From Microbacterium sp. H1-D42 (GTDB lineage: Bacteria; Actinomycetota; Actinomycetes; Actinomycetales; Microbacteriaceae): a DNA stretch of 64,000 bases. Numbering within the stretch: the first letter of the stretch is position 1; every line of letters begins with the position of its first letter. A program made the position numbers and the translations under genes. The notes under the pieces were generated by a model that saw nothing but the letters and a program-made list of their open reading frames with translations, searched no databases and was not told the origin of the DNA. Below are positions 11,860 through 34,286 of the stretch, piece by piece. The stretch covers positions 3,534,001 to 3,598,000 of the forward strand of contig NZ_CP093342.1 of the NCBI RefSeq assembly GCF_022637555.1. The letters run 5' to 3'.

Positions 11860-11931
11860 CCTCTCAGCGCGCCTAGTCGTCTCAGTGCGCAGGGTCCTCT
11901 CAGCGCGCAGGATCGTCTCGGCGCGGTGGGC
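11860..11931. repeat. 18-bp tandem repeat, four units
   Basis: Four consecutive 18-nt units follow the consensus CSTCTCAGCGCGCAGGRT: 11860-11877, 11878-11895, 11896-11913 and 11914-11931. The last two units overlap the end of the ArsR gene, and the gene's stop codon lies in the third. Each unit contains TCTCRGYGCGC. The repeat looks like a slippage-prone microsatellite at the gene end. Confidence 0.7.
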
Positions 11932-20997: not shown

Positions 20998-21864
20998 TCA
21001 GTCGGATGCCAGGGCGAAGAGTCGCAGCATCCGCGCTGCCTCTTCGGCCACGGCCTCGCGGGCGGGCTTCAGGTACTTGCGCGAGTCTACGAGGTTCTCG
21101 TCGGCCGCCAGCGTCTCGCGGATCGCGCGGGTGAAGAAGCCGTTGAGGTGCGTGGAGACGTTGACCTTCGTCATACCGGCGTGCACCGCCTGCACGATCA
21201 CGTCATCCGAGACGCCGGACGAGCCGTGCAGCACGAGCGGCACGTCGACGCCCTTGCGCCCGGCACCGCGCAGCGCTGTGCGAAGGCGTCCGATCAGCTC
21301 GATGTCGAGAGATGCCGATCGGTCGAGCATCGCGTGCGATGAGCCGACCGCGACGGCGAGCGAGTCGACGCCGGTGGCCTCGACGAAGGCGCGCGCCTCA
21401 GCGGGGTCGGTGCGCACGCCCGGCGCGTGGGCGCCATCCTTGCCGCCGACCTCGCCGAGCTCGGCCTCGATGTAGACGCCGGCAGCGCGCGCACGCGAGG
21501 CGACATCGGCGGTGACGGCGACGTTCTCGTCGTAGTCGAGCTTGCCGCCGTCGAACATGACCGATCCGAAGCCGAGCTCGATGGCCTCGTCGACCAGCTC
21601 GGGGCGCTCAGCGTGATCGAGGTGCACGGCGACGGGAGTCGATGCGCGGCGTGCGACGGCGAGCGTCGCCCAGCCGATCGGCTCGAGCCCGCCGTGATAG
21701 TCGGCGCAGTTCTGCGAGATCTGCAGGATGACCGGCAGGTTCGCACGCTCGGATGCTGAGACGAGCGCCTCGGCGGTCTCGAGGTGAATGACGTTGAAGG
21801 CGCCGAGGCCGGTGCCGACGGCGGCGGATGCGCGCATGAGGTCGCGGGCGGAGACGAGGGTCAT
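20998..21864 (-). CDS. Class II ketose-bisphosphate aldolase (GatY/KbaY/FbaA type)
   Basis: The product has 288 residues. It is a zinc aldolase that would split tagatose-1,6- (or fructose-1,6-) bisphosphate into dihydroxyacetone phosphate and glyceraldehyde 3-phosphate. Visible motifs: GAFNVIHLETAEALVSASER, VAVHLDHAERPELVDEAIEL (metal His and catalytic Asp in LDH), SVMFDGGKLDYDENV, EAELGEVGGKDG, VDSLAVAVGSSHAM, LVLHGSSGVSDDVI (metal His) and GMTKVNVSTHLN. The ATG overlaps the kinase stop by four bases (ATGA) and GAAGGAAA precedes it. The operon context favours tagatose-bisphosphate. Confidence 0.9.
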   Translation of the reverse strand: MTLVSARDLMRASAAVGTGLGAFNVIHLETAEALVSASERANLPVILQISQNCADYHGGLEPIGWATLAVARRASTPVAVHLDHAERPELVDEAIELGFGSVMFDGGKLDYDENVAVTADVASRARAAGVYIEAELGEVGGKDGAHAPGVRTDPAEARAFVEATGVDSLAVAVGSSHAMLDRSASLDIELIGRLRTALRGAGRKGVDVPLVLHGSSGVSDDVIVQAVHAGMTKVNVSTHLNGFFTRAIRETLAADENLVDSRKYLKPAREAVAEEAARMLRLFALASD

Positions 21865-22940
21865 CGGGTTTCCTTCGGGGTGAGGACGAGGGACTGCTCG
21901 AGGTCGGGCCAGGTCGGGTGGATCTCGCCGGCGAGCGGCATGAGCACGGCGGCGGCGGACCATGACGTCGCGCGACGCAGGATCTGCTCGGGGTCGTGGA
22001 TGCCGGCATCCATCAGCACGGCACACGCGGCGACCGCGGCGTCGCCCGCCCCTGTCGGGTTGCCTGCCAACGGGGTGCCGAGGCGGGCGTGCAGGATGTT
22101 GACGGCCAGGCCGGCGTGCGGAATCACTGATGCATCGGCGTCCGCACGGTGTGTCGCGCCGCGACTCGCCGTGTCGGAGACGGATCGTCCGTAATCCGAC
22201 ACAGCGGAGGCGGTGGATGCCGGTGCCTCTGCTTCTGCGGCGGTGATGGCCAGCATCCCGTCGGCGCCGCGAGAGAGCAGCACGAGTTCGGCGCCGCGGC
22301 GCAGCAGCTCGCGGGCGCCGTCGATCGGGTCGGCAAGGCCGGTGGCATCCGCCAGCTCGTGCTCGTTGGGCTTGAGGACGGATGCCCCGGCATCGGCCGC
22401 CACGAGCAGCGCGGGGCCCGACGTGTCTGCGATCACGGTCGCACCGGCTTCACGGCCGAGCGCGATCAGCGACGGCAGGACATCGGCGGGGGTGTCAGGC
22501 GGGAAGCTTCCCGAGATCACCAGCACCGGGGCGCCGGCATCCGAAACACCACTGCTCGCGAGCGCCTCGGCGACGGCGGCGCGCAGCGCGTCCCATTCCG
22601 CCGCGGTCGGCGCGAAGCCGCGTTCGTTGACGATCGTCGTGTCGCCCAGCGCCTCATCGACCAGCGCGATGCTGCGACGCGTGGATGCGGCGACCGGGAC
22701 GAACAGGTGCGGCACCCCGGCGGATTCCAGCTCTTCGGCGAACTCCGCACCCGTCGCACCGCCCACGGTGGTCACCGCGACGACCGACGCGCCCTGAGCA
22801 TGCGCGACGCGAGCGACGTTGAGGCCCTTGCCTCCGGCGCGCGCGGCACCGGCATCCGCCCGATGCGTGCCCCCGGCGACGATCTTCTCGACGTGCCAGG
22901 TGAGGTCGAGCGCGGGGTTCGCGGTGACGGTGACGATCAT
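21861..22940 (-). CDS. PfkB family phosphosugar kinase (tagatose-6-phosphate/1-phosphofructokinase type)
   Basis: The product has 359 residues, longer than the usual ~310. The family frame is clear: MIVTVTANPALDLTWHVEKI, RAGGKGLNVARVAHAQG, LVISGSFPPDTP, SVLKPNEHELADATGL and the nucleotide/catalytic motif NPTGAGDAAVAACAVL. Directly before HARLGTPLAGNPTGAGD lies a foreign-looking segment (about residues 247-275, including SDYGRSVSDTASRGATHRAD). It corresponds exactly to the 87-bp palindromic element at 22116-22202, i.e. 29 codons in frame. It would phosphorylate tagatose 6-phosphate (or fructose 1-phosphate) for the aldolase encoded just downstream, with which it overlaps by ATGA. Whether the insert affects activity is unknown; its position in a surface loop near the active site suggests it is tolerated. 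Confidence 0.88.
   Translation of the reverse strand: MIVTVTANPALDLTWHVEKIVAGGTHRADAGAARAGGKGLNVARVAHAQGASVVAVTTVGGATGAEFAEELESAGVPHLFVPVAASTRRSIALVDEALGDTTIVNERGFAPTAAEWDALRAAVAEALASSGVSDAGAPVLVISGSFPPDTPADVLPSLIALGREAGATVIADTSGPALLVAADAGASVLKPNEHELADATGLADPIDGARELLRRGAELVLLSRGADGMLAITAAEAEAPASTASAVSDYGRSVSDTASRGATHRADADASVIPHAGLAVNILHARLGTPLAGNPTGAGDAAVAACAVLMDAGIHDPEQILRRATSWSAAAVLMPLAGEIHPTWPDLEQSLVLTPKETR
22116..22202. repeat. GTGTCGGAT palindromic element, copy A, inside the PfkB kinase gene
   Basis: It begins GTGCGGAATCACTGATG and ends CGTCCGTAATCCGACAC; the two ends are imperfect reverse complements. The centre has CGCACGGTGTGTCGCGCC and CTCGCCGTGTCGG. The 87 bp equal 29 codons and keep the kinase reading frame. 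Copies B, C and D lie in intergenic regions. Confidence 0.75.
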
Positions 22941-24958: not shown

Positions 24959-25023
24959 TCGCTCATAATACCGCAGAAGGGTGTGTTCGGGGAGGAACTT
25001 CCCGACGTTGGCCCCTCACCGGC

Positions 25024-25111
25024 GTACCGAGTTACTGATGCCCGTCCGTCCGCACGGCGTGTCGACACCCGACACGCCGCAGGGAACTCACGATCGTCAG
25101 TGATTCGGCAC
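25024..25111. repeat. GTGTCGGAT palindromic element, copy B
   Basis: It begins GTACCGAGTTACTGATG and ends CGTCAGTGATTCGGCAC, imperfect reverse complements of each other. A perfect 10-bp inner stem CGGCGTGTCG/CGACACGCCG (25055-25064, 25070-25079) lies at its centre. It starts two bases beyond the stop of the ROK regulator, so it can also act as its terminator. Confidence 0.75.
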
Positions 25112-25113
25112 AG

Positions 25114-32406: not shown

Positions 32407-32580
32407 CTTGCGCTGCCGCCTACCGGCGGCGTCCTTCGAGTCGTGCCTTCATGGGGTCGTGCCTCCTGGTCGCCCTTAGAGCGTATTAGCCCCCTCCGAC
32501 ATCGAGGCCAGATCGCGGGCGATTCGCAGTTTTCCGGCCCGCAGGGCGAGTGGGGCGGGCAGGTGTCAGCATCCACCCCC

Positions 32581-32658
32581 GTGTCGGATCACTGACGGCG
32601 CGCCGGCCGGGACGCCCCCTGCCCAGGCGGCACGCCCACATCATCAGTAATCCGACAC
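32581..32658. repeat. GTGTCGGAT palindromic element, copy C
   Basis: It begins GTGTCGGATCACTGACG and ends CATCAGTAATCCGACAC, reverse complements apart from a few changes. It lies 7 nt beyond the stop of the flavin disulfide oxidoreductase gene and upstream of the opuC-type operon. The rest of the gap (32407-32580) holds no gene; TAATAC on the minus strand near 32488-32483 is a possible -10 for the operon. Confidence 0.75.
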
Positions 32659-32665
32659 CCGAAGA

Positions 32666-34111: not shown

Positions 34112-34181
34112 ATTGCCCTCCTGGGCTCCAGTCTTGCCCGAGGACGGGCGGAGCGACAGGGGGTCGGCGCTCGGGCATCCG

Positions 34182-34258
34182 GTGTCGGATCACAGACGAC
34201 GCGCCGGGGTGGGCACGCGGACCAGTGCGACACGCCGTGTGCGTCAGTAGTCCGGCAC
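34182..34258. repeat. GTGTCGGAT palindromic element, copy D
   Basis: It begins GTGTCGGATCACAGACG and ends CGTCAGTAGTCCGGCAC. The inner part contains GCGACACGCCGTGTGCG, the same core as copies A and B in the opposite orientation. It lies 28 nt beyond the stop of the lactonase-like gene. Confidence 0.75.
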
Positions 34259-34286
34259 ACGGGCCGAGACCGGCGGCAGCTTCAGA

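Follow-up and report, generated by a model that had tools for sequence, protein, structure and literature searches.

A 90-bp palindrome inside a PfkB-family hexose kinase gene of Microbacterium sp. H1-D42 is, in all probability, an in-frame copy of a dispersed and mostly intergenic repeat; it is predicted to be translated as a disordered surface loop and was likely captured there, as a member of one of several repeat families that keep landing in two permissive loops of the enzyme. The window, by which we mean the whole stretch of DNA that was analysed (64,000 nucleotides), comes from a genome of 3.66 Mb (here G000), and the labels F1 to F5 are our own names for the repeat families. The features of the window referred to below are the following.

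21861..22940, minus strand: PfkB-family hexose kinase gene, 359 aa (open reading frame, Pfam PF00294, NCBIfam TIGR03168 and relatives)
22115..22204, in frame on the minus strand: F1 palindrome in the kinase, about residues 246-276 (covariance models R1 and R2)
22098..22238, minus strand: loop B of the kinase, residues 235-281, made up of the F1 insert and flanking low-complexity residues
22527..22550, minus strand: loop A of the kinase, about residues 131-138, short in the window kinase and a second insertion site in relatives
about 25023-25113, no strand given: F1 copy, intergenic (R1 and gene calls)
about 32579-32660, no strand given: F1 copy, intergenic, slightly shorter form (R1 and gene calls)
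about 34180-34260, no strand given: F1 copy, intergenic, slightly shorter form (R1 and gene calls)

The original prediction of an in-frame palindromic repeat inside a PfkB kinase is confirmed by the open reading frame, by PF00294 and by the covariance model. Its dimensions need some revision: the palindrome is indeed in frame, but the covariance model gives 90 nt (22115-22204) instead of 87 bp, and the proposed addition of about 29 residues is right for the palindrome itself (about 30) but not for the whole loop, which has gained 45 residues and measures 61 aa up to NPTGAG versus the usual 16 aa in orthologues. Read on the minus strand in the kinase frame, the insert is roughly VSDYGRSVSDTASRGATHRADADASVIPHA. 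The enzyme falls in the 1-phosphofructokinase / tagatose-6-phosphate kinase group, with TIGR03168 scoring 215.9 bits, slightly below the cut-off of 216.4, and LacC and fructose-1-phosphate kinase are its solved and folded relatives. The neighbouring open reading frames are, we take it, a class II aldolase-like gene and a ROK-like kinase gene. Structure prediction gave a mean pLDDT of 88.4 for the kinase, with values below 50 at residues 244-247 and 249-274. Loop B is predicted to be a hairpin turn joining strands 229-234 and 280-286, and site A a turn joining helix 113-129 to strand 139-143. If translated, the F1 insert would, on this predicted structure, be a disordered surface loop.

The insert belongs to a dispersed repeat family, its likeness to the other members being well beyond what chance would give. 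BLAST against the genome found four other places (E 3e-8 to 7e-4), and a covariance model seeded with the five BLAST copies (R1) put the number of distinct places at 15 or more (E <= 0.03), a minimum since the scoring covered 150 of the 3186 first-look candidates; three weak R1 places (2032175, 817848 and 3351321, E 0.65 to 0.88) were excluded from the count. With at least 15 genomic copies, the element is clearly not confined to this gene. F1 is about 90 bp long, its consensus stem has 34 pairs, and the outer arms form terminal inverted repeats. Fourteen of the 15 copies lie outside called genes, the remaining one being the kinase copy; whether a copy is inside or outside a gene was decided by a home-made codon-usage gene finder, which called all four kinases used as a check. 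The three other copies in the window are among those outside called genes and are thus intergenic, as had been proposed. F1 was rejected as a known RNA family, given that five F1 loci had no Rfam match up to E 1.

A second model (R2), trained on an alignment without kinase copies, recovered the kinase insert at E 7e-13. The 63 matches behind R2 come from 28 non-kinase loci in four genomes, with both strands included and overlap between some of the loci; the test is strict, yet partly dependent, because R1, which included the kinase copy, had picked these loci. R2 also matches a hairpin at site A of the G076 kinase (L119:775-863, E 1.4e-5) with little sequence likeness, which indicates that the model is partly structure-driven. 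The G076 hairpin perhaps represents a further repeat family.

Across the genus, 100 of 149 genomes match the kinase at E <= 0.001, distant matches included, and we measured the loops in 44 of 53 fetched orthologue loci, the nine unmeasured ones being among the more distant matches. Loop B is at most 30 aa long (usually 16) in 39 of these 44 and longer than 30 aa in the other five, in which the inserts differ, and loop A exceeds 38 aa in nine. A homologous long loop is therefore not a general property of the orthologues. Strains without the insert and with an otherwise collinear protein had been anticipated, and G033 is such a case, with 86% identity over residues 1-238 and a loop of 22 aa. A clean empty site was not found: the kinase at L009, next to L008, has a long loop of its own and no clean junction, and L008/L009 was rejected as a filled/empty pair on that ground.

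We also read both loops by peptide patterns in the best 120 of 2645 listed homologues. Within this set, the inserts at site B are F1 (5 homologues), F2 (12), F3 (1) and other long sequences (16), with none in 85 and 1 unreadable; at site A they are F2 (12), F3, F4 and F5 (2 apiece) and other long sequences (25), with none in 73 and 4 unreadable. Shared descent inflates these counts, and the F1 pattern omits P0006 and P0008, which look F1-like. Tandem F1 copies occupy the same kinase loop in G129 (R2 with its kinase-free training, E 2.6e-8 and 2.3e-4) and in Microbacterium sp. MAH-37 (R2, E 1.2e-4 and 1.3e-3). F2 is a palindrome unrelated to F1, with the peptide GADTPDVGR..SGVSAP, and sits either in loop B or at site A (about residue 130). 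Its DNA was identified in L007 (site B) and L116 (site A), two loci outside the profile seed, and also in the L008 kinase, which was part of the seed. The family occurs in 37 of 149 genomes at E <= 0.01, of which the weakest single matches are perhaps chance. Repeat character was also seen at site A, where the insert of G115 is an inverted repeat; for L113 the arms are 49 nt long with 82% complementarity. An inverted repeat was looked for in L118 and none was found. The F4, F5 and P0004 inserts are known here as peptides only. In a separate observation, P0002 is a 547-aa kinase homologue whose middle part is duplicated internally, the F2 insert being repeated along with it.

Both families are also found inside unrelated genes. 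Sampling of 24 F1 places in three relatives gave three that were called inside a gene; two of these are good and one, at L243, was discounted, as it lies at the extreme end of an open reading frame and is a weak match. One good copy is in the linker of a CT_C_D/CT_A_B two-domain carboxyltransferase of G071 (residues 223-255, E 7.9e-8), between domains at residues 1-189 and 290-552. The other is an in-frame copy midway along an MFS transporter of G040 (residues 204-234, E 4e-13), in what is presumably, going by the MFS fold, the cytoplasmic loop between helices 6 and 7. Both loci are absent from the R2 training loci. The expectation that the same insert would occur in other genes hence holds in relatives, and in G000 itself no second such gene was found, one of 15 copies being in a called gene. 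For F2, three of 47 sampled places are inside called genes, one in a lactonase gene and the other two in the gene of a membrane protein, in two genomes; the GADTP frame is used in each. The membrane protein of G000 (L207:1213-2970, at about 154,700 of G000:C1) carries F2 in frame ahead of a membrane segment, and G042 has F2 in the same gene. A protein search, able to see the GADTP frame only, found an internal F2 in the methyltransferase P0122/P0124, and F2 at the protein end in P0123 (PurC-like) and P0125/P0127 (FecCD), which may be start or frame artefacts. As a side observation, the ROK-like kinase gene beside the PfkB kinase of MAH-37 has a long N-terminal extension (L128:75-460) with two F1 copies (L128:104-196 and 310-399), which are in frame unless translation starts later.

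In the homologues read, F2 uses one of its three reading frames throughout. The GADTP frame is matched by 28 of the best 120 of 2645 kinases at E <= 0.001, the other two frames by none. Stops are spread about evenly over the three frames, with 8, 7 and 6 in 80 translations of 40 sampled copies; the F2 contexts comprise 47 places among the strongest F2 matches, of which these 40 passed the filter for the frame test. We dropped plain hydrophilicity as the basis of the choice, given that GRAVY points the opposite way: the GADTP frame (-0.54) is the least hydrophilic, with the others at -0.77 and -1.05. It is poorest in C, W, F, Y, M, I, L and V residues (17.1% versus 25.6% and 21.8%) and has a charge nearest zero. 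For F1, 11 of the 14 other G000 copies have a stop in the frame that the kinase uses, usually a TGA in the arm, and the captured copy must therefore have differed or changed. The arm triplet is GGA in the kinase copy; the other G000 copies have 28 arms, with TGA at this triplet in 23 and AGA in 5. GGA arms are present in F1 copies beside the MAH-37 kinase, so the change to GGA may predate capture.

Outside genes, the repeats have a consistent position. The 14 intergenic F1 copies of G000 lie in tandem (8) or convergent (6) gaps, and with both neighbours called, copies in these two gap types make up 14 of 14 (F1, G000), 19 of 21 (F1, relatives) and 37 of 41 (F2). Copies in divergent gaps number 0 of 14, 2 of 21 and 4 of 41, respectively, versus 9 of 29 gaps in the window. 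Intergenic copies lie just past stop codons, with median distances to the neighbouring stop of 16 nt (F1, G000), 31 nt (F1, relatives) and 27 nt (F2). This placement, which resembles that of REPs as described in the accessible part of PMC3733652, fits the alternative that the hairpin is kept for an action in DNA or RNA, as a terminator, a pause or a determinant of mRNA stability, with the peptide as a by-product. The two strands of the kinase copy retain the ability to fold, with energies of -49 and -44 kcal/mol that fall inside the range seen for other copies. However, most orthologues do without the hairpin, and because the hairpin is identical in all frames, a hairpin function fails to predict the single frame of F2. 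We consider this explanation unlikely.

The copies are also clustered. In G000, 8 of 15 F1 copies have a neighbour within 15 kb (P 0.0025), and four of them, including the kinase one, lie within 12.1 kb in the kinase region. On the main contig of G036 the figure for F2 is 13 of 20 among the copies listed (P 0.0012), and the kinase region there holds seven copies, including the kinase one, within 68 kb; clustering of F1 in G071 is weak (4 of 10, P 0.049). A Y1/RAYT transposase was rejected as the mobiliser, as the Y1_Tnp domain was not found in G000 and occurs in one of 149 genus genomes, with controls positive in 5 of 14. Inspection by eye of 12 nt of flank at the 15 F1 copies showed no target-site duplication, which old copies may have lost. 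A GTAG or CGTC tag is absent from the ends of these 15 copies. No lone pair of F1 ends was found in G000, in which 22 of 26 F1 arm matches are at known copies and 4 are stray and far apart, and no transposon with the ends of F1 was seen in that genome. Elsewhere in the window, 11860-11930 holds short direct repeats with an 18-bp step and the motif CCTCTCAGCGCGC.

Recurrent capture has to be weighed against a single old insertion that was inherited and diverged, the inserts of relatives being its decayed or expanded forms. Some of the data would suit such a history: a common peptide can be recognised in the F1 inserts of P0001 and P0004, and in both G129 and MAH-37 the F1 copies of the kinase are arranged in tandem. 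However, F1 and F2 belong to separate DNA families, F2 is found at two protein sites, and P0004 has F2 at site A and F1 at site B of one protein. The presence of both families in unrelated genes also argues against one inherited insertion. The core sequences of P0001, which carries F1, and P0003, which carries F2, share 92% identity. Within the M. arabinogalactanolyticum group, P0010, P0013, P0016 and P0020 have F2; P0024, P0025 and P0027 lack it and have other long loops. Such close pairs with different inserts speak for recurrence more plainly than the counts from a quick tree of 94 kinases, which required 8 changes at A and 9 at B for F2 and 5 at B for F1. These counts are perhaps too high, because gains and losses were counted together and 36 of 91 forks were open, a lack of resolution that also leaves some room for a single insertion. 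The tree used 94 of the 120 homologues with insert columns dropped, leaving out P0002, P0014 and P0097 to P0120. In the pair L007/L131, the F2 inserts differ by two synonymous changes and one non-synonymous change, too few for a judgement by dN/dS. Taken together, a single ancestral insertion seems quite unlikely to us.

It is highly improbable that the loops are simply free to grow and that the palindromes are chance products of low-complexity DNA. Many long loops do hold low-complexity or unclassified inserts (25 of 120 at A and 16 of 120 at B among the best 120 of 2645), including simple repeats such as APGAPAPGAP and PAPERAQ, and the loops therefore accept much besides palindromes. However, F1 and F2 are defined families found elsewhere in the genomes, F2 being as widespread as noted above, and the insert at site A of G064 is matched 68 times in its own genome and 89 times in the G115 genome. 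Free growth is thus contradicted for F1 and F2, and for the unclassified loops it may hold. Least probable of all is that the protein lacks the insert through skipping or removal at the RNA or ribosome level, for which the accessible part of PMC6649704 offers a precedent in the mitochondria of the yeast Magnusiomyces capitatus, where hairpins are transcribed and left untranslated via translational bypassing: a bypass has no need of an open frame, yet no stop occurs in the kinase matches among those listed, and F2 keeps one frame.

For the preferred reading, in-frame capture of a dispersed repeat, we propose the following course. Palindromes of the REP or MITE type would spread, partly to nearby places, and most landings in genes would be lost. 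Those that fall in a linker or a turn at the surface would be tolerated where the frame is open and encodes few bulky residues, and a tolerated insert may then decay, duplicate or be replaced. We take a near-neutral loop as the default and claim no gain of function. On balance, and with less assurance than for the kinase insert itself, we favour a wider interpretation, in which Microbacterium maintains a continuing trade between intergenic palindromes and proteins: unrelated families would be captured repeatedly at two loop sockets of the kinase and in linkers elsewhere, selection would admit F2 in one frame only, and the repeats would constitute a standing stock of ready-made disordered loops.

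An outcome like that of the Rickettsia palindromic elements (RPEs) is now seen in actinobacteria that have many sequenced genomes, in which closely related kinases differ in the insert of one loop and the enzyme is soluble and could be assayed. Hence, it becomes testable by what steps a repeat gets into a protein, which loops and frames accept it, and whether it has any effect there. The data suggest that repeats of the Microbacterium type probably continue to provide proteins with new loops.

Protein-coding palindromes are best known from Rickettsia. Outside that genus, they are reportedly named in the titles of papers on Wolbachia and Methanocaldococcus jannaschii; going by these titles, the likeness to our case is one of coding potential, with phyla and sequences that presumably differ from ours. 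In the open literature we found no report of protein-coding palindromes in Microbacterium, which is weak evidence of novelty, given that most subscription papers were outside this scope.

Several known classes of repeat share part of the picture. The accessible part of PMC3733652 describes REPs as lying mostly downstream of genes, in tandem and convergent gaps, and occasionally inside genes, and F1 and F2 resemble them in being palindromic and in this placement. In contrast to REPs tagged with GTAG or CGTC, F1 has untagged ends, about 90 bp compared with 20-40 bp, and no Y1/RAYT gene in G000. With MITEs, for which in-frame fusions are known from the accessible parts of PMC2229807 and PMC10969869, F1 shares a size of about 90 bp, long terminal inverted repeats and the absence of a gene of its own, but it differs in that no target-site duplication was visible by eye and a search of G000 found no element with the same ends around a transposase. 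The closest parallel is with the RPEs, which, in the portion of PMC2229807 available to us, are palindromes of 105-146 bp that occur between genes as well as fused in frame within 19 protein genes, one of which, a guanylate kinase, is translated and active with its RPE. As far as that portion goes, both systems consist of palindromes of about 100 bp with a long stem-loop, the F1 kinase copy being near the lower limit of a class size of about 100-150 bp, and both have in-frame copies in unrelated genes besides the intergenic ones (kinase, MFS transporter and carboxyltransferase for F1, of which only the kinase in G000; kinase, lactonase and membrane protein for F2). The differences are that Microbacterium belongs to another phylum, that its copies are mostly intergenic and that one enzyme takes several families at the same two loops. 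The likeness to the Rickettsia elements drawn in the original prediction stands for the mode of insertion, and by analogy it is in this mode that the Microbacterium case works like the RPEs.
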